A program made the position numbers and the translations under genes. Below the pieces are notes generated by a model. It did not search any database. It worked only from the letters and a program-made list of their open reading frames with translations, and was not told the origin of the DNA. Positions 2,041 to 23,935 of a DNA stretch of 38,217 nucleotides are shown in pieces. The DNA is from a virus. Where the stretch lies: positions 1-38,217 of IMG/VR virus record IMGVR_UViG_3300018082_000018; one strand, given 5' to 3'. Positions within the stretch are counted from its first letter, which is position 1. Each line of letters begins with the position of its first letter.

Positions 2041-3740
2041 TGCTCGACCTAACCGGCGTGAGGCGAATTTCAATCGACACGGAAACCACCGGGCTGGATC
2101 GGCATGGAGCTGATCGGCCCGTTGGACTTTCCGTAGCATCTCCGAAGGGAGACGATTACTATAGCTGGGGGCACCCTTCTGGCAACTCGCACGATCTAGA
2201 CGCAGTTCGACGGTGGGCCAAACAGGAGCTTCCTGGCAAGGAGGTTTCGCTGGTCAACCCATCCCTGGATCTAGGGATGCTCAAAAAATCTGGGATCGAC
2301 TTAGAAGCCTTGGGCGTCATACCCAGGGGTGTACAATACAAATGCGCCTTGATCGACGAACGACGGCGTAAATATGACCTGGGATCGATGTCGAAGGACT
2401 ATCTGAATAAGACCAAGAAGGAGATTCTGTGGCACCCCCAGCACATCCATAGGCAGGCAGGCAGCGACATAAAGAACTACGCCATCCAGGACGCACGACT
2501 CACGCTCGACCTGGACAACCACTTTGAAGAGCTGTTGACAAAACAAGACCTTCAGCGCGTGGCGAAGTTAGAGGACGACTTGATCTACTGTGTCCTCCAC
2601 ATGGAGGATCAAGGCACGTTCCTGGACGTTCCTAAGCTGAAGCGATGGGACGAGGAGATAGCAGCCGAGGTTGTGAAGCGTGAGAAGGGATTACGCGGCC
2701 TGAACCCATGCTCTGAAAAGGAAATGACTGCCGCGTTCGAGAAGCTAGGATTTCATGAGTTCAGCGCGACCGAGACCGGCAAGAACTGCTTCGACAAAAA
2801 CGCTGTGAAGGCGTACAGGGCCATCGGTTCGTGGAACAGGAAGCTGGTTTCGCTCTGCAATGATCTGATGGCGCTGCGAGCTGTGAGCGGGCTCAGGACT
2901 AGATCGACAACCGCATACTTGGAGGCAATTCGTGATGGTGGAATTCTACGATACCACATGCACCAGTGCAGGGCAGATGACAACGGCACAGTTAGTGGCC
3001 GCTTCTCGGCTTCTGGAGTCAACATTCAACAAGTTTCGGCTGAGGAGAAGCAGGACGCCGCAACACTGCGCTGGATCATTCGTGAGCTGTTTCTTCCCAA
3101 GCAAGGAACCGCGTGGCTTAGCGGAGACGCGAGTCAAATTGAGTTCCGTCTCTTTGCTCACTATTCCCAAAGCGAAGCCTTGATCCGTGCTTACCTGGAT
3201 GATCCAAACTGTGACTTCCATGCTGTAGTCGCCGTGATGGTCAACCTGATTCGCAAGCTGGCCAAGAACGTGAACTTCGGCATGGTCTACGGAATGGGCC
3301 AGCGCAAGATCGCAAACGACCTTGGCCTGAGTCCCGAGAAGTCAGACGCATTCTTCACCGACTATCACGCTCGATTCCCGGAAGCCAAGACCCTGATGAG
3401 CCGTTGCATGAGGGTTGCCCGCGAGCGTGGCTTCGTCAGGACGCTCTTAGGCCGTCGCAGGCGGTTCCCGGGCGGGCGTCAGCTACACGCGGCCCTGAAT
3501 GCCGTGCTGCAAGGCTCAGCCGCTGACCTGATGAAGCTGAAGCTGGTGAAACTGTACCGAGAAATGAAGCATCTTGAATTCAATCTACGCTTTACAGTGC
3601 ATGATGAAGTCGATGGAGACCTGCTGAACCCGTACAGGGAGAAGGATATCCAGGCATTGTTGAACGAGCAGGAAATTCCACTCAAGGTGCCGATTGTGTG
3701 GAAGGTGCAAACCGGCATAAACTGGAGGGTAGCCGCATGA
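2040..3740 (+). CDS. DNA polymerase, family A with 3'-5' proofreading exonuclease
   Basis: The protein is 566 aa from ATG 2040; a TTG at 2007 would add 11 residues. All hallmarks of a PolI-type replicase are present. The DnaQ-like exonuclease has Exo I DTETTG (D13, E15), Exo II NPSLDLGML and Exo III YAIQD. The polymerase has motif A GDASQIEFR (D363), motif B R405-xxx-K409 to Y417-G418, and motif C VHDEVD (H521, D522, E523). It is shorter than T7 gp5 and lacks a 5' nuclease domain, as is usual for phage enzymes. It would copy the phage genome with the prim-pol and SF3 helicase of the same arm. The start overlaps a 20-codon membrane peptide. Confidence 0.97.
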   Translation: MLDLTGVRRISIDTETTGLDRHGADRPVGLSVASPKGDDYYSWGHPSGNSHDLDAVRRWAKQELPGKEVSLVNPSLDLGMLKKSGIDLEALGVIPRGVQYKCALIDERRRKYDLGSMSKDYLNKTKKEILWHPQHIHRQAGSDIKNYAIQDARLTLDLDNHFEELLTKQDLQRVAKLEDDLIYCVLHMEDQGTFLDVPKLKRWDEEIAAEVVKREKGLRGLNPCSEKEMTAAFEKLGFHEFSATETGKNCFDKNAVKAYRAIGSWNRKLVSLCNDLMALRAVSGLRTRSTTAYLEAIRDGGILRYHMHQCRADDNGTVSGRFSASGVNIQQVSAEEKQDAATLRWIIRELFLPKQGTAWLSGDASQIEFRLFAHYSQSEALIRAYLDDPNCDFHAVVAVMVNLIRKLAKNVNFGMVYGMGQRKIANDLGLSPEKSDAFFTDYHARFPEAKTLMSRCMRVARERGFVRTLLGRRRRFPGGRQLHAALNAVLQGSAADLMKLKLVKLYREMKHLEFNLRFTVHDEVDGDLLNPYREKDIQALLNEQEIPLKVPIVWKVQTGINWRVAA

Positions 3741-3958
3741 AACTGGAAGAAAGCACCAGAAGAACTGAGTACAGCCGTGGTTTCCGGCAAGGGCGGTACG
3801 AGTCAAAATTCGTTGAGCATCAGACAGGAGAAAAGATTGTACGGCTTAAAAGTCTGCTTCTTGAGGCTGTGAAAGAGGCAGTCGAAGGTCGGACGGATGG
3901 GGTTATCAACGTGAATTATGACTGGATTCCAAAGGTCAGGAAGGAGCTGGGGGTATGA
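3737..3958 (+). CDS. Hypothetical charged protein, 73 aa
   Basis: Starts at ATG 3737 (ATGA overlap with the polymerase stop), with GGAGGG eight bases upstream. The N-terminal half is highly charged (ESTRRTEYSRGFRQGRYESK). The centre is an amphipathic helix (LKSLLLEAVKEAVEG). No motif recognised. It sits between DNA polymerase and a nuclease and overlaps both, so a replication or repair accessory role is plausible but unproven. Confidence 0.65.
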   Translation: MKLEESTRRTEYSRGFRQGRYESKFVEHQTGEKIVRLKSLLLEAVKEAVEGRTDGVINVNYDWIPKVRKELGV

Positions 3959-4344
3959 ACGAGTCGGCTTTTGCAACAGAGTTTCGGATAGTGGTGAAGG
4001 CTTTGGAGCCCAAAGCAGTGGTTTTCCGGCACGTTGAGCAGTTCAGCAGGGACGTGCCGGATATCTCTATAACCCTAAATGGTAAAACATTTTGGGTCGA
4101 GTGTAAGAGAGCCTGGGATAGTAGCCTAGATGATTTCGAGTGGACGCAAGAAAAAACCCATCGGAAGATGGGTAATGTCTGGCTGTTGGTTTTCGGTATT
4201 GATATTGATGCTACGCTGTCAGTGCTGAGCCTCTACAGGCCCGTCTCCAACTTTCCGATCCTCTGGGGTGTGCTGAGCGGCCTGAAGGGCAGGAAAGAGG
4301 CGTACAGGGCAGCCTGGAGCGAAATACGACCTTCGTTTTTCTAG
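3955..4344 (+). CDS. PD-(D/E)xK nuclease (VRR-NUC / resolvase-like)
   Basis: ATG 3955 overlaps the previous stop. The 129-aa protein has the minimal nuclease core: E9 in the first helix, VPD (D36), then WVECK (E49, K51), then Q65 in the following helix (WTQEKTHRKMG). This E-PD-ExK-Q order is typical of VRR-NUC and Holliday-junction-resolvase-like phage nucleases that cut branched DNA or host DNA. It is the last gene of the rightward arm and converges on the late operon. The C-terminus (after about 110) is basic. Substrate unknown. Confidence 0.75.
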   Translation: MNESAFATEFRIVVKALEPKAVVFRHVEQFSRDVPDISITLNGKTFWVECKRAWDSSLDDFEWTQEKTHRKMGNVWLLVFGIDIDATLSVLSLYRPVSNFPILWGVLSGLKGRKEAYRAAWSEIRPSFF

Positions 4345-4429
4345 CCTCATACCCAAGCAGGTCGGAGACGGCATTTTCATCATCTTCGACCATGCTTGGC
4401 CCCTCCCATCCCCACATTGGATTACTCAT
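4211..4429 (-). CDS. Possible small protein at the 3' end of the late operon, antisense to the nuclease gene
   Basis: A 72-codon frame starts at ATG 4429 (ATGA overlap with the 35-aa gene upstream), with AAGGA about ten bases before it. The first 35 residues look protein-like and acidic (MSNPMWGWEG, VEDDENAVSDLLG). The rest is antisense to the nuclease gene for 134 nt and is composed like a shadow frame. Either it is real with a fortuitous extension, or only the coupling signals are chance. Confidence 0.3.
   Translation of the reverse strand: MSNPMWGWEGPSMVEDDENAVSDLLGYEARKTKVVFRSRLPCTPLSCPSGRSAHPRGSESWRRACRGSALTA
4353..4399. terminator. Inverted repeat between convergent operons (possible bidirectional terminator)
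   Basis: CCAAGCAGGTCG (4353-4364) pairs with CGACCATGCTTGG (4387-4399): 12 bp with one bulged A and a 22-nt loop. It lies just where the rightward and leftward arms meet. There is no clear U-run on either strand, so factor-independent termination is not assured. Confidence 0.4.
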
Positions 4430-4533
4430 GACTTTACCGTCCTTGGGGGCTTGACTGCTGGGGCTTTCTTTGCTGCTTCATCAATTGCTTTCCACCAAAT
4501 TCGGATTTCTTTTAGCGTTCGGTAATGTCTCAT
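4426..4533 (-). CDS. Small basic protein, 35 aa
   Basis: ATG 4533 overlaps the metallophosphoesterase stop (ATGA), and the frame ends at TGA 4428-4426. The residues form one amphipathic helix with two tryptophans (IRIWWKAIDEAAKKA) and a proline and lysine-rich tail. Codons look like the neighbouring coding DNA, and the gap would otherwise be unexplained. No family recognised. Confidence 0.45.
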   Translation of the reverse strand: MRHYRTLKEIRIWWKAIDEAAKKAPAVKPPRTVKS

Positions 4534-5525
4534 CTAAGTGTCAGCTCCCACCTGCCTGTCGGCTCAAGGATGGCTCTTGCCATGAGCGTATCGCTAGGCG
4601 TCAAACCAGCGCGTTCAGCATACCCTCCCCAGAAGTCTTGAAAGCTGCTGCTCATCACTCCGGCAATCTTCTCCAGGTAGATGTCGTCTCCGCGCCTCGA
4701 CTGTCTCCAATCGTAAGTCAAAACCACGTCATGCAAATGGCCCACCAGGTAGAGCTGAGAGTCTCCCTGTCCCATGAACCTATGCAACATCATGAGTTTC
4801 GCGCCCTTGGTCTTTGCGCTTCCCGTACCGTGCCAGAGGGAAACCCGAAAGGGCTTGTGCAACCCGAAGTTGATGTCAACGAGCTGAATCCCGCTGCTGT
4901 AGGGAATGCCCAGAAGTGTCGCAATGATCGAGCCAGCCTCACCAAACGTTTTGCTCGTTCTTGATTCATGGTTTCCTCCCACGTATCCAAGCACCCTGTG
5001 GCGCATTGGCATTGCGATTTCGACGAACCTCAAAAGCTGTTCTTTCGGCTCAAACTTGTTCTCAAAGGGCGAGCCAACCGACAGAACTGTCGCCGCGTCG
5101 ATCATGTCCCCACCGAAAAGAACGAACCTGTTAGGACTCGCCAGAACCCAGTCCCGGAACTCTATGAACCGTTCTTCCTGGCAGGTGATGGCCCCGAATT
5201 GAACGTCCGTAATGTGGAGCAGTTCAATCGTCTTGAAGATCTTCGGGTCAAAAATAACTGAGACTCTCTTGGCCTGACCCTGGATGATCTTTGACTCTTT
5301 AATCTTGAACACATCAGCCGGGCGCTTGTCCAGCAGTTTCAACAGCCGGTTTGATGTGGTCTCAACTGTCTGCCCGTTCAAAGTCAGACTCATGCCGTTT
5401 CGTCCCCCATCCATAAAGCAGTTGCTTACGTTTTTTACGCCTCCACTCAGTAGTGAAAACGGTGTGGTATCCAGAATCTTTGCTCTTCTGAGAGTGCCGC
5501 GTATTCGCCGGTCGGAGCGCGCCAT
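4530..5525 (-). CDS. Calcineurin-like metallophosphoesterase
   Basis: The protein is 331 aa. Metal-site motifs of the calcineurin-like phosphoesterase fold appear in order: DVQ (107-109, where DxH is usual), GGD (D140), GNHE (184-187), WHG (H232) and GHLH (262-265). The enzyme class hydrolyses phosphomono- or diesters with two metal ions. Phage members include polynucleotide phosphatases and Mre11-like nucleases, and the substrate is not evident here. The first 40 residues are basic and poorly conserved-looking, so a start at Met38 or Met45 is possible. It sits at the far end of the late operon and may act on DNA or nucleotides during or after packaging. Confidence 0.85.
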   Translation of the reverse strand: MARSDRRIRGTLRRAKILDTTPFSLLSGGVKNVSNCFMDGGRNGMSLTLNGQTVETTSNRLLKLLDKRPADVFKIKESKIIQGQAKRVSVIFDPKIFKTIELLHITDVQFGAITCQEERFIEFRDWVLASPNRFVLFGGDMIDAATVLSVGSPFENKFEPKEQLLRFVEIAMPMRHRVLGYVGGNHESRTSKTFGEAGSIIATLLGIPYSSGIQLVDINFGLHKPFRVSLWHGTGSAKTKGAKLMMLHRFMGQGDSQLYLVGHLHDVVLTYDWRQSRRGDDIYLEKIAGVMSSSFQDFWGGYAERAGLTPSDTLMARAILEPTGRWELTLR

Positions 5526-20145: not shown

Positions 20146-20370
20146 TTACCTTCCTTTGTTCGTGAAGTACCCAATCAAGGCCAGCACGACGGCAGTTACT
20201 GCGCTCGTAATATGCTCCGTGTCGCCTTCGACCAGCTTACCGAAGTCGATGTTCGCGGACAGCAGAGCTGCACCGAGAACGCCTACCAGTGTGGTCTTAT
20301 GGTCGGCAGAGATTTTGCTGAGGACGTTCTTGATAATTCGAGTGACTGCAAATTTCTTCAGGAAGTTCAT
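20146..20370 (-). CDS. Holin candidate, 74 aa
   Basis: ATG 20370 overlaps the endolysin stop (ATGA). There is a basic amphipathic N-terminus, then hydrophobic segments at about 27-40 (TLVGVLGAALLSA) and 54-69 (ITSAVTAVVLALIGYF), and a short basic tail. Two membrane spans with charged ends fit a class II holin, and the neighbour is an endolysin. Proof of pore formation is absent. The design also resembles other small phage membrane proteins. Confidence 0.65.
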   Translation of the reverse strand: MNFLKKFAVTRIIKNVLSKISADHKTTLVGVLGAALLSANIDFGKLVEGDTEHITSAVTAVVLALIGYFTNKGR

Positions 20371-20708
20371 GTTGGGTCGTACTCCAGGTGGAGATGCTCA
20401 TTTTCCTTTCCTAGACTCTCCAAAATTACGTCGAACCCAAGAGGGCTTAGCTGCTTTTTTACTTCGTTGAACACCAACAATTTCAGGGACTCGTTCATCA
20501 GATTCTTCGTCCGAAAATCCACTGCCAGCCCCTCGTAGTGCTTCGACTTCAGTTTGTGGATCTTCAGCTTCGGGTCGTCCCAAACTGCTGTCACCACTGT
20601 TTCCATCAGCGTTTTCCCCGTGAAGATTCGCTCCACTAGCTGAATCGCCAGCACTGTCTGCGGCTGGATCTTGTTCAGGCTTACTCCCGCTTTGAATGAC
20701 AGACTCAT
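20367..20708 (-). CDS. Endolysin, M15 / VanY-type peptidase
   Basis: The protein is 113 aa from ATG 20708, with GGGAG upstream. It carries the zinc motif of LAS-type peptidases: SKHYEGLAVDF (H57, D64) and EHLHLEYD (E104, H105, H107). These enzymes cut the peptide part of peptidoglycan (D-Ala-D-Ala carboxypeptidase or L-Ala-D-Glu endopeptidase, as in T5 endolysin). There is no signal peptide, so release depends on the holin that follows. The reading frame lies almost wholly inside the frame of the 174-aa gene on the same strand. Confidence 0.85.
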   Translation of the reverse strand: MSLSFKAGVSLNKIQPQTVLAIQLVERIFTGKTLMETVVTAVWDDPKLKIHKLKSKHYEGLAVDFRTKNLMNESLKLLVFNEVKKQLSPLGFDVILESLGKENEHLHLEYDPT

Positions 20709-20922
20709 ATTTTCTCTCCCATTTGTGCTCCGCGTTGAAAAACCCCGCCGCTGCTTGCTCTGCGACCTTCTCCGGACTCCAGAAGTCACGTGGTGATTCA
20801 CACCATCCACTCACCTGAAGAACTCTCAGCTCGTGCTCTGACAACTCATCCGTATTCACTACCTTCCTCCCGCCCTGTGGATGGAACACCGCGAAAATTG
20901 GGCTCTTGATTTCACCGCTCAT
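20398..20922 (-). CDS. Hypothetical protein whose acidic C-terminal half overprints the endolysin gene
   Basis: The protein is 174 aa from ATG 20922, which overlaps the previous gene. The first 65 residues look like a genuine small phage domain (IFAVFHPQGGRKVVN, then LQVSGWCESPRDFWSPEKV); I recall similar P-x-x-R-V and GW-x-SP patterns in phage capsid-region proteins. From about residue 72 the frame runs through the endolysin gene for 311 nt. There it encodes low-complexity acidic sequence, then a basic end (RSKKAAKPSWVRRNFG). The C-terminal half may be overprinted and expressed, or may be passive extension. Confidence 0.55.
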   Translation of the reverse strand: MSGEIKSPIFAVFHPQGGRKVVNTDELSEHELRVLQVSGWCESPRDFWSPEKVAEQAAAGFFNAEHKWERKYESVIQSGSKPEQDPAADSAGDSASGANLHGENADGNSGDSSLGRPEAEDPQTEVEALRGAGSGFSDEESDERVPEIVGVQRSKKAAKPSWVRRNFGESRKGK

Positions 20923-21128
20923 TTCTTCCCCCCGAGTTTTTCCTGGACGCACTTCAGTACACCTGAAATGTCGCTGTAGATGATCTGCCTAGACTGGCCC
21001 GGCGAAGCATAGTCTTCATGGTCAACAGTTACGATGAAACCATTCTTTGCCTTGCGGATCGCAACTCCAACCACTTCAGTTTTCTTCTCGTTCTTCTTTG
21101 CTGCATACTCTTCCATTGCTTTGCTCAT
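20919..21128 (-). CDS. Hypothetical protein, 69 aa
   Basis: ATG 21128 overlaps the previous stop (ATGA). The N-terminus is a lysine/glutamate-rich helix (KAMEEYAAKKNEKK), followed by an alternating strand pattern (VVGVAIRKAKNGFIVTVDHED) and a closing helix (ISGVLKCVQEKLG). A small alpha/beta protein with no known motif, placed between the decoration-like gene and the lysis genes. Confidence 0.65.
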   Translation of the reverse strand: MSKAMEEYAAKKNEKKTEVVGVAIRKAKNGFIVTVDHEDYASPGQSRQIIYSDISGVLKCVQEKLGGKK

Positions 21129-22657
21129 GTAAGTAAAGTCCCCCCTAAACTGAATGTGAATGACGCTGCATCGACCCCACCGCCGAACGTTGTGGCGCCG
21201 AAGCTGAGCGTAACGGCGGACTCCAATGAGTCAAGCGCATCGCCGACCGTATGAGACACACCAGCGCGAGTCTCAAAGAGCTGCGTGGTGTCGGTGTTCG
21301 TGGTCGCCTCGACAAGCGTGTGGGCAACCGTCGCAGAGCTGTAAGTCGTACCTGAGCCTGCCGTTGCGTTGACAGCCGACTTGATGTTGTCCAACGCGAT
21401 GGCTGCAGTTCCGCCGATCAGCACCTGGTTAGCTATTGAATCTAGACCGCCTAACAGCGTAGCGGCACCGAACGAGAGCTGTGCACTGACCTCGGTAGTT
21501 GCAAAAGAGTTTGCGGCTGTTCCGACCAGCAGTGCCGTGAACACCTGCGTGGTGTCAGTGTTCGCCTCGGCTGAGATCGTGGTGTGGACTACGGTTGCCG
21601 TGCTGTAGGTCGTACCGGCCCCTGCCGTGGCGTTCACTGCGCTCTTGATGTTGTCTAAAGCTACAGCAGCCGACACACCGATCAGCACCTCGTTTGCTAC
21701 CGATGCCACACCACCCACGAAGGTAATAGATCCAAAGCTTAGATGGGTTGCGGTCTCCACCGACCGCAGGACATTCCCGCCGTCGAATGTGAAGGCTGTG
21801 GCAAGCCGACCTTGGAACAACTGCGTTGTGTCCGTGTTTGTGGTCGCTTCGATCTGCGGGTGCTGCATCACTGCGCTGTATTCAGTCCCAGGCGTCCCGC
21901 TCGCGTTGATGGCAGCCTTGATATTGTCCAGTGTAATGGCCGCCGTCGCGCCTATTTTGATCTGATTCTGAACAACACCCAGCGTAGTCTTGAGCGTGTA
22001 GACAGTCTCATACTGACCGTATCCGAGGGTGATTGTTCCACCATCATCGGGGTTCGTCGCATCACTTGTCAAAGTTACGCTCGACCGAACCTCAGTCAGC
22101 GCAGTCTTAAAGGTGTAAACCGAAGTGTTCAGAGTAACTGTGTCATTATTGGCAGGAGCAACCCCGGTACTAGTAAGCGTTCCGGTTGCCTTCGCTTCAG
22201 TCAAAGCGGTCTTGAACGTATAAACGTTCGCACCCAGAGTTACCGTATCAGCATCAGAGGGTGCAACTCCCGAACTCGTCAGCGTGGCTTTGTCTGTCGC
22301 GGCAGCAGTTCCGGCAAGCGTAGCCACAGCACGCCATACTCGAGCCAGAACGTCACTGACGCTTACATTGACCGTCTCGGCTACTCCCGGATAGACAACC
22401 AGGTCAGCGGTGCTCACGCCCGTTTTCTGGGCGAAAGACGCGCCGGGAAGATCGATCCAAGCTTTGCTGACTGGATCTTGGGTTTGGAGCTTAACGTCAA
22501 GGGTTGGGGAAGTTCCGAGGACTGCGCTAACATTCAAGAACAGCCGAACTCCGCGCCACTTCAGATTTTGTTGGTCGGGAGAAAGAAATACTCCTCCACC
22601 TGCTACAGACCGGGCGAGGGACTCAAAGGGGATTGTGTCGATGTTAAGCATTGACAT
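21125..22657 (-). CDS. Virion protein built from nested Ig-type modules (decoration or tail candidate)
   Basis: The protein is 510 aa from ATG 22657, preceded by AGGAG. Residues 1-120 form a unique N-terminal domain with beta pattern (FLSPDQQNLKWRGVRLFLNV, LDVKLQTQDP). Residues 124-496 hold parts of three Ig-type modules. Three front halves (GVAPSDADTVTLGANVYTFK-type, at 124, 158 and 193) come before three back halves (VLIG-x-SAA-x-ALDNIKSAVN to LSFGAATL-GG; starts near 231, 321 and 409). This order fits modules inserted inside one another. Related modules are common on phage capsids and tails and may help surface adhesion. It follows the coat gene and its terminator. Confidence 0.65.
   Translation of the reverse strand: MSMLNIDTIPFESLARSVAGGGVFLSPDQQNLKWRGVRLFLNVSAVLGTSPTLDVKLQTQDPVSKAWIDLPGASFAQKTGVSTADLVVYPGVAETVNVSVSDVLARVWRAVATLAGTAAATDKATLTSSGVAPSDADTVTLGANVYTFKTALTEAKATGTLTSTGVAPANNDTVTLNTSVYTFKTALTEVRSSVTLTSDATNPDDGGTITLGYGQYETVYTLKTTLGVVQNQIKIGATAAITLDNIKAAINASGTPGTEYSAVMQHPQIEATTNTDTTQLFQGRLATAFTFDGGNVLRSVETATHLSFGSITFVGGVASVANEVLIGVSAAVALDNIKSAVNATAGAGTTYSTATVVHTTISAEANTDTTQVFTALLVGTAANSFATTEVSAQLSFGAATLLGGLDSIANQVLIGGTAAIALDNIKSAVNATAGSGTTYSSATVAHTLVEATTNTDTTQLFETRAGVSHTVGDALDSLESAVTLSFGATTFGGGVDAASFTFSLGGTLLT
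21170..22288 (-). repeat. Nested module array (front-front-front-back-back-back)
   Basis: Within the 510-aa protein the motif YTFKTALTE appears twice and a divergent YTLKTTLG once, all before the first of three DNIK-A-x-N back halves. Each back half ends in LSFG-x-x-T-x-x-GG. A complete copy of the same module sits at 17603-17968 in the gp10-like gene and defines the junction (YTFKTALT, then EVLIGASAA). Confidence 0.75.
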
Positions 22658-22682: not shown

Positions 22683-22720
22683 CTCTCAAAAGTTGGGGGC
22701 CGTGGCTTATTCCGGCCCCC
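22683..22720 (-). terminator. Rho-independent terminator after the coat gene
   Basis: GGGGGCCG (22695-22702) and CGGCCCCC (22713-22720) form a perfect 8-bp GC stem with a 10-nt loop. On the minus strand it is followed by AACTTTTG. It lies seven bases after the coat stop (22727) and before the next late gene, so it may partly stop transcription and keep coat mRNA high. Confidence 0.6.
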
Positions 22721-22726
22721 TGTTTG

Positions 22727-23935
22727 TTAACCTGCAAGGCGAACGGCCAGTTCCGGGTACAGAGTTTTGACGCCGTAAATTACGTCAATTCGGGTTGGAA
22801 TCGCATCATCAGTGATGGTGTACTGACGAACGATACGCATGTTGACTCCCTTGTAGGAATCCCGAGCCGCGAAATGCACGCCTTCAGGCAATTCCAGAGG
22901 CACAGTTACCAAGGCAAAGGCGTCCTTGTGGAAGGCCAGGTTCTGCGTAGAAGTCGCAGCAGAAGGGTCGAAGAGGGTGATCAGATCGTTGTCCACCGGA
23001 AGAACGGTAACGTTCTGGAAAGCACCAGTCGCATTCAACGCAGGGGAAATCGGCAGGGTTGCCATAGCTCCACCACCAGTTGCAGTGGTGTCCGCAGTGA
23101 CTACGATCTGACGAAGCACTCCGGTGCTCTGACGGCTTTGTGGGTTCACAGCGAACACACCGGCAATGGTGAAGGTGTCACCTTTCTTCAGGGTCACTGA
23201 AGCGTCCAATCCGTCAATAGAAATGGTGGAAGCGTTGGCAACGTAAGCAAGCACGGCGGGAGTGCTGTTGTCAGAGGTTCCCGTGGTGTGCAGGTTCACG
23301 TTCTGATCCATGCTCCAACCAATCCCACCGACTCGACCAATTTCAGCGTCCTCATACTGATCAGAAATCGCCCGGTTCGGATTGAAGAAAGCCTTGAAAG
23401 CATCGGCCAAGGTTACTTCAGCCGCCGGATCGATGATTCCGTGCCGGTCTCTATCCTTGGGGGCCGCTTCCTCGTTCAATCGACGAGTCGTCGCAGCCAG
23501 CGCTGCGAACGTAGCAGGTGTGGTTCGAGGGACTCCGACCTGGTTGTAGATGTCTTTGTAGAGTGACAACAGATCAAAGTCGATCTTGTTGGCAATCGTC
23601 GCCATTGCAGGCTTCAGATACCGTTCCGAGAACTCCTCAATGTTCAGAGTCAGCTCACGAGAGGTGAAAGAGAAGTCAACGCCCGCAACTTTATCAATAA
23701 CAATCGATGTGCTCGGCTCGACGATATTCTGTGGGGACAGAGTGCTGTTGGTGCGAACGGTAAAACGGTTTGGCTTGCGGATAGTAAGTGTGTCGCCGAT
23801 CTTGCCGACAGTGGGAAGAGACTTCCCGAAATACTTGTCATAGTCCCGGCGAACTTTCTTGGCCATGACGAGGTTATTTTCCAAGATTACCAGAGCTTCC
23901 TTGGTAATCAGGGAGGGGGTTAAAAGGGTGTTCAT
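22727..23935 (-). CDS. Major capsid protein, P22 gp5-like
   Basis: The protein is 402 aa; ATG 23935 is preceded by AGGAG. It begins MNTLLTPSLITKEALVILEN, continues RRDYDKYFGKSLPTVGKIGDTLTIRKPNRF, and ends with VIYGVKTLYPELAVRLAG. This is the recognisable plan of P22-type coat proteins (HK97 fold with an inserted domain) and of their relatives in soil and marine podophages. The centre (about 215-300) is a beta-rich part where the P22 inserted domain lies. It follows the scaffold gene and portal gene in the standard order and is followed by a terminator hairpin. Confidence 0.85.
   Translation of the reverse strand: MNTLLTPSLITKEALVILENNLVMAKKVRRDYDKYFGKSLPTVGKIGDTLTIRKPNRFTVRTNSTLSPQNIVEPSTSIVIDKVAGVDFSFTSRELTLNIEEFSERYLKPAMATIANKIDFDLLSLYKDIYNQVGVPRTTPATFAALAATTRRLNEEAAPKDRDRHGIIDPAAEVTLADAFKAFFNPNRAISDQYEDAEIGRVGGIGWSMDQNVNLHTTGTSDNSTPAVLAYVANASTISIDGLDASVTLKKGDTFTIAGVFAVNPQSRQSTGVLRQIVVTADTTATGGGAMATLPISPALNATGAFQNVTVLPVDNDLITLFDPSAATSTQNLAFHKDAFALVTVPLELPEGVHFAARDSYKGVNMRIVRQYTITDDAIPTRIDVIYGVKTLYPELAVRLAG

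Follow-up and report, generated by a model that had tools for sequence, protein, structure and literature searches.

Layout of the locus

The window, i.e., the whole stretch of 38,217 nucleotides that was analysed, encodes on its minus strand a protein of 510 aa in which front (F) and back (B) halves of one recurring module could be delimited. Two half-module HMMs (30 positions for the front, 85 for the back), built from modules in related contigs, were used for this. The features are the following:

21125..22657, minus strand: gene of the nested protein, an open frame of 510 aa with an ortholog of like order in the contig L005
22664..22668, minus strand: Shine-Dalgarno sequence AGGAG, six bases ahead of the ATG of the nested gene
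22286..22657, minus strand: N-terminal host domain, aa 1-124 (35% identity in L005)
22190..22285, minus strand: F1, outermost front half, aa 125-156 (F HMM 50.3 bits)
22085..22186, minus strand: F2, middle front half, aa 158-191 (F HMM 46.1 bits; 83% identity with F2 of L005)
21974..22081, minus strand: F3, innermost front half, aa 193-228 (F HMM 31.4 bits)
21698..21973, minus strand: B3, innermost back half, aa 229-320 (B HMM 94.3 bits)
21434..21697, minus strand: B2, middle back half, aa 321-408 (B HMM 113.6 bits; nearest to B2 of L005, 61%)
21164..21433, minus strand: B1, outermost back half, aa 409-498 (B HMM 97.1 bits)
21128..21163, minus strand: C-terminal strand SFTFSLGGTLLT, kept as AFTFSIGGTYIL in L005
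17516..17983, minus strand: ordinary, un-nested F-B module in the head-closure (gp10-like) protein
22727..23935, minus strand: major capsid gene of the P22 coat type, just upstream of the nested gene (PF11651, 1.6e-47; phrog_283, 6e-87)

The protein thus reads N-domain, F1, F2, F3, B3, B2, B1 and C-terminal strand, and the normal junction occurs in it only between F3 and B3, which are directly joined. Its F and B scores are far above chance; although the HMMs were trained on a set that includes the 510-aa protein itself, they also detect the halves in L005 and in about 150 other proteins. A preliminary description of this DNA had proposed, from the letters alone, three front halves in a row followed by three back halves at 21170-22288, with a gp10-like protein displaying the normal junction. 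The HMMs bear out this order, the span agrees with that of the halves (21164-22285), and the gp10-like protein, a head closure protein Hc3 (phrog_578), does carry a complete F-B module. Two predicted virion proteins of this phage hence use the module, the nested one and the head-closure one. Within the nested gene, F1 and F2 are 72% identical in amino acids (65% in DNA), B1 and B2 59% (61% in DNA), and B2 and B3 45%; judging from their sequences, the copies are old.

Other elements lie nearby. The intergenic region between the capsid and nested genes holds a terminator-like hairpin (22688-22720, minus strand) made of GGGGGCCG, a 10-base loop and CGGCCCCC, followed by AACTTTT. In the structural block, at 20146-20810 (minus strand), an ORF containing KSKHYEGLAVDF resembles M15 peptidases by eye and lies beside a small membrane-protein-like ORF; the two are possibly an endolysin and a holin, and no PHROG matched the ORFs of this region.

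Relatives and architectures

A second FFFBBB protein was found in L005, which derives from a different metagenome and encodes 522 aa with 50% identity, the order and the open frame being kept and the gene lying, as in the window, after a P22-type coat gene (L004 is the window sequence itself, at 100%). The searches of viral contigs returned L005 alone as a relative of the host protein, and neither an FB nor an FFBB intermediate of it. Against the “phages” collection, the whole 510-aa protein had no match at E 1e-5 and the module had partial matches only; Pfam and PHROGs hold no family for either of them, and a profile of 8 modules found nothing relevant by sequence in the PDB.

Viral contigs were scanned with both the module and nested proteins as queries, which yielded about 150 distinct proteins that bear the module: 76 FB, about 31 FFBB, 20 FBFB, 7 FBFBFB, 2 FBFBFBFB, 2 FFFBBB and 1 FFBFBB, the remainder being fragments or weak hits. 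A scan of genome contigs added one FB protein, in a MAG. With thresholds of at least 20 bits for B and at least 10 bits for F, the brackets are balanced in all of the 61 complete multi-module proteins (FBFB, FFBB, FFFBBB, FFBFBB, etc.), none of which has unequal numbers of F and B. Some proteins appeared unbalanced (B, FBF, FBB, FFB), and these were rejected as products of contig ends, diverged F halves or the inclusion of hits of about 8-18 bits.

The nests occur in several hosts, namely the window/L005 protein, the NDSKLEQ family (25 proteins), L006/L023, L027, L088, L097, L098 and L100. Outside the NDSKLEQ family, the flanks match only their own relatives (single-module, tandem-module or module-free) and never one another (blastp, E 1e-3). 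In L027, two adjacent genes with unlike flanks (2704-3834 and 3922-4923) carry an FFBB nest each. A linker motif between consecutive F halves (AKATG/VKATG/VKASG) is common to nests in different hosts, the F1-F2 linker of the window included, and some nests may, to judge from sequence, have spread as a ready-made cassette. The FFBFBB protein of L097 (3722-5227) has a tandem pair inside an outer module, and its host relatives are FB (L049, L026) or FBFB (L073); since its outer B is degenerate and the B of its single-module relatives is nearest to the first inner B, it is a less secure nest than those of the FFBB type. A conserved protein of about 180 aa is encoded directly upstream of the nested gene of the NDSKLEQ family (STQAG.ATS..LSTTQTGFTLTNP; 2397-2933 in L142, with similar genes in L079, L144, L145, L147, L150, L152, L155 and L158), for which no PHROG match was obtained with the one member tested.

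Empty sites and candidate donor modules

The NDSKLEQ family contains members with one module (10) and with two (25), and this allows occupied and empty sites to be compared. L087 (FB) and L031 (FFBB) align over their full length, the one insertion lying between ...VYTMKTAL and ...VLIGAAATNSLDNLK, with 75% identity in the N-terminal part and 71% in the C-terminal part. In DNA, the collinear blocks are 6-226 of L087 with 3-226 of L031, and 256-564 with 661-969, so that about 434 bp in L031 replace 29 bp of L087 exactly between F and B. The F of L087 is 59% identical to the outer F of L031 and 45% to the inner one, and its B 69% to the outer and 42% to the inner one. The pair L193/L163 agrees with this, and in a second host family the B of L017 (FB) is 58% identical to the outer B of L088 (FFBB) and 40% to the inner one. 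Because the single-module F or B is nearer to the outer halves, the outer shell in these pairs can be taken as the resident and the inner module as the newcomer. There are also single-module NDSKLEQ members that are ambiguous or not nearer to the outer shell (L008, L059, L183, L211, L214). The loss of the GTAGN loop in the outer B was considered as a mark of the outer position and discarded, being largely confined to one host family, and outer and inner profiles trained on the NDSKLEQ family did not cleanly sort the B halves of the window.

Where did the newcomers come from? The inner modules are nearer to free modules elsewhere than to the shell that surrounds them. That of L006 matches a module of L019 with 73% identity over aa 117-237 (the HMM places the module at 122-236), and of the rest of L006 only the outer B matches, more weakly, that same module. 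Similarly, the inner FBFB tandem of L097 matches an FBFB block of L178 (68%, aa 119-370). Since the matches of these inner units to free modules coincide with the module edges, the modules would seem to move as complete units.

Fold of the module

The 510-aa protein itself, for which two sequences were at hand, gave an AF2 model with a pLDDT of 32 that was left unused, and the FFBB relative L079 (25 family members) was modelled instead, with a pLDDT of 85.7 and a pTM of 0.67. Foldseek found no match in the PDB below E 0.001; the chains it ranked highest were compared with the L079 model by VIA-align, whose ranges give the first and last residue only, the 79-103 aligned residues corresponding to one module’s worth. 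Most of the matches listed fall on the inner module (about 76-219 of the model): the phage sheath 8kee_A (Z 9.8, 91 residues, 2.0 Å), the Milano sheath (8foy, Z 8.6), the Mu sheath (9khy, Z 7.8) and FliD (5h5w, Z 6.6). A second group begins within the outer F and ends within the outer B (about 40-47 to 296-314) and includes 9cuy_A, of which a continuous chain (87-176) covers outer F to outer B (Z 7.8, 79 residues, 2.1 Å), and 6iwy (Z 5.8). None of the matches listed joins only an outer and an inner half. Because matches of the 9cuy type span outer F to outer B, the outer halves, split by the inner module, are predicted to form one domain in the two-level L079 model.

Each module of the model carries a 13-residue helix (125-137 and 230-242). 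The preliminary description had called the modules Ig-type, a label that the model does not support, since it is not an all-beta sandwich devoid of a long core helix. Pfam gave no match for the protein or its modules, and antibody chains appear against the model only with a Z of about 3. Over most of the domain, the modelled fold resembles instead the insertion domains of phage sheaths and FliD.

Origin and pairing of the halves

What the FFFBBB order, the empty sites and the two-level model have in common is a domain lodged within a domain of its own family, i.e., recursive self-insertion. Taken as a whole, these observations are probably best explained by recursive nesting at one and the same loop of a phage virion protein, in which F1 would pair with B1, F2 with B2 and F3 with B3. 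The 510-aa protein would then contain three copies of one alpha/beta module of about 120 residues, inserted recursively at the point where the front half, a hairpin, meets the back half, which contains the helix. To judge from the relatives, the nest would have grown as whole F-B modules recombined into the junction between the F and the B of a resident copy. With every insertion the two chain ends come back to the base, and the modules would therefore be expected to form a stalk whose tip is the innermost one. The nested pairing is favoured, though weakly, by covariation and mirror-tree tests (24/31; bootstrap 81%). Insertion into the same loop and pairing of distant halves in a predicted structure, both put forward in the preliminary description, are upheld in the relatives by the balanced brackets (61/61), the empty sites, the edge-exact inserts and the L079 model, while the three levels of the window rest on homology, given the pLDDT of its own model and the absence of intermediates from the searches.

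Other origins have to be weighed against recursive nesting. Tandem duplication could have affected F and B independently (F to FFF, B to BBB) and produced the appearance of a nest by chance, and the window on its own is compatible with this, since F1 and F2 are more alike than either is to F3, and B1 and B2 more alike than B2 and B3. However, such duplications predict FFB, FBB and other unequal counts, seen in 0 of the 61 complete proteins; the empty-site pairs exhibit instead one contiguous insertion bringing F and B together, and the inner F-B units correspond to free modules as undivided blocks, so that separate duplication is contradicted in the relatives and very unlikely. It could also be that the order is true and the chain domain-swapped, each F pairing with another B than nesting implies, as in parts of Si3, an insert of the cyanobacterial RNA polymerase, or that the F halves are packed on each other. 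Swapping has been reported for HABAS domains inserted in this recursive way (PMC11515920), and the low pLDDT of the window protein leaves room for them, but the L079 model has a compact domain made of the outer halves and a separate one made of the inner halves, and the lack of any outer-plus-inner match among those listed also speaks against a swap, which we consider unlikely. As for FFFBBB resulting from misassembly or repeat collapse in a single metagenome contig, assemblers can indeed be misled by repeats; the recurrence of order and open frame at 50% identity in a separate metagenome, together with module copies that differ by 35-50% in DNA, has already refuted it, and its probability is practically negligible.

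Host domain and likely role

With the joined flanks as the query against the “phages” collection, the N-domain is weakly similar (E 0.1) to short proteins of phages PPpW-3 and ep3 that lack the module and whose genes follow the capsid gene; the N-domain alone had no match in that collection. Because of this resemblance and of the conservation of the C-terminal strand, which is proposed to be the last strand of the host domain, the nest may interrupt the last hairpin of that domain. The host domain, small and rich in beta structure, would then probably hold the whole nest within its last hairpin and may add a fourth, outer level.

In the window and L005 alike, the nested gene is a direct neighbour of the major capsid gene, the position expected of a capsid decoration, and the nearest upstream gene of at least 150 aa encodes a major head protein for L143, L031, L087 and L100. 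From gene position, a stalk or spike on the capsid surface appears as the likeliest role of the 510-aa protein, and we hold it with modest confidence. A place in the tail or neck, or outside the virion, is less probable and still a serious alternative: the module is also present in the head-closure/nozzle-type protein of the window, and its fold is common in tail sheaths, that of XM1 for instance carrying a FliD-like insertion domain (PMC10457771). On the other side, the gene directly follows the major capsid gene in two viruses, several nested relatives come after head-protein genes, and a FliD-like domain is described on the capsid auxiliary protein of phicrAss001 (PMC10172136).

More generally, and tentatively, a shuffling module with a built-in insertion loop might recursively grow virion proteins: complete modules or tandem pairs would recombine, time after time, into the F|B loop of a copy already there and give rise to FFFBBB and FFBFBB, and to four levels when the host domain is counted. 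Surface spikes might in this way be lengthened while the chain ends stay at the base.

Comparison with known systems

Domains are rarely inserted recursively into others of their own kind, and the pattern has so far been described mainly for one insert of the cyanobacterial RNA polymerase. That well-described case is ancient, whereas here copies can still be found with one, two and three levels, together with empty sites and candidate donors, so that the insertion steps can be read and tested. This makes the module a system for asking why one loop repeatedly tolerates whole-domain insertions and how such chains fold. It also raises a question: is it by nesting, and not by tandem repeats, that phages adjust how long their surface spikes are? 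Such proteins are missed by tandem-repeat finders and by single-domain profiles, and neither Pfam nor PHROGs names the module.

Several known systems share part of these traits. Phage structural proteins also carry tandem Ig-like modules, which are mobile, exposed at the surface and of comparable size; the present module differs from them in fold, with its central helix, and in being nested, not only tandem. Closer in fold are the insertion domain of the sheaths of A-1(L), Milano, Mu and XM1 and the D2/D3 domains of FliD, which structural comparison shows to be the same fold. The sheath matches, however, correspond to one such domain only, and the profile of 8 modules found no sequence match to them in the PDB; the present module, moreover, is nested and occurs in other proteins. 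The FD domain of the auxiliary capsid protein of phicrAss001 (7qof) also matches the inner module (Z 6.2, 3.7 Å, 100 residues); the available text of its report describes one FD domain beside a PH-like domain and makes no mention of nesting (PMC10172136). Successive insertions in a phage structural protein are known from the tail sheath protein gp18 of T4, with domain I in II, II in III, and III between the two ends, which make up IV (PMC3004832), but the nested domains of gp18 are of different folds and those of the present nest are copies of one module.

The nearest parallel is Si3, in the beta' subunit of the cyanobacterial RNA polymerase, where HABAS/SBHM domains are nested recursively in up to six levels (PMC11515920, PMC10802570, PMC13114784), domains of one family being, as here, inserted into domains of that same family. 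The preliminary description knew of no arrangement of this depth, yet like-domain nesting as deep or deeper has been published (PMC11515920, PMC13114784): recursive self-insertion is already known from the HABAS domains of Si3, and the depth is not unprecedented. Si3 differs in that it has another fold, belongs to a cellular enzyme, stems from an ancient single lineage and is partly domain-swapped, whereas the present nests are found in virion proteins of phages and in several unrelated host proteins, always at the same F|B loop, with their empty sites and donors still visible. What is new is that such nesting occurs in virion proteins of phages, that one loop is used repeatedly across host proteins, and that empty sites and donors have survived.
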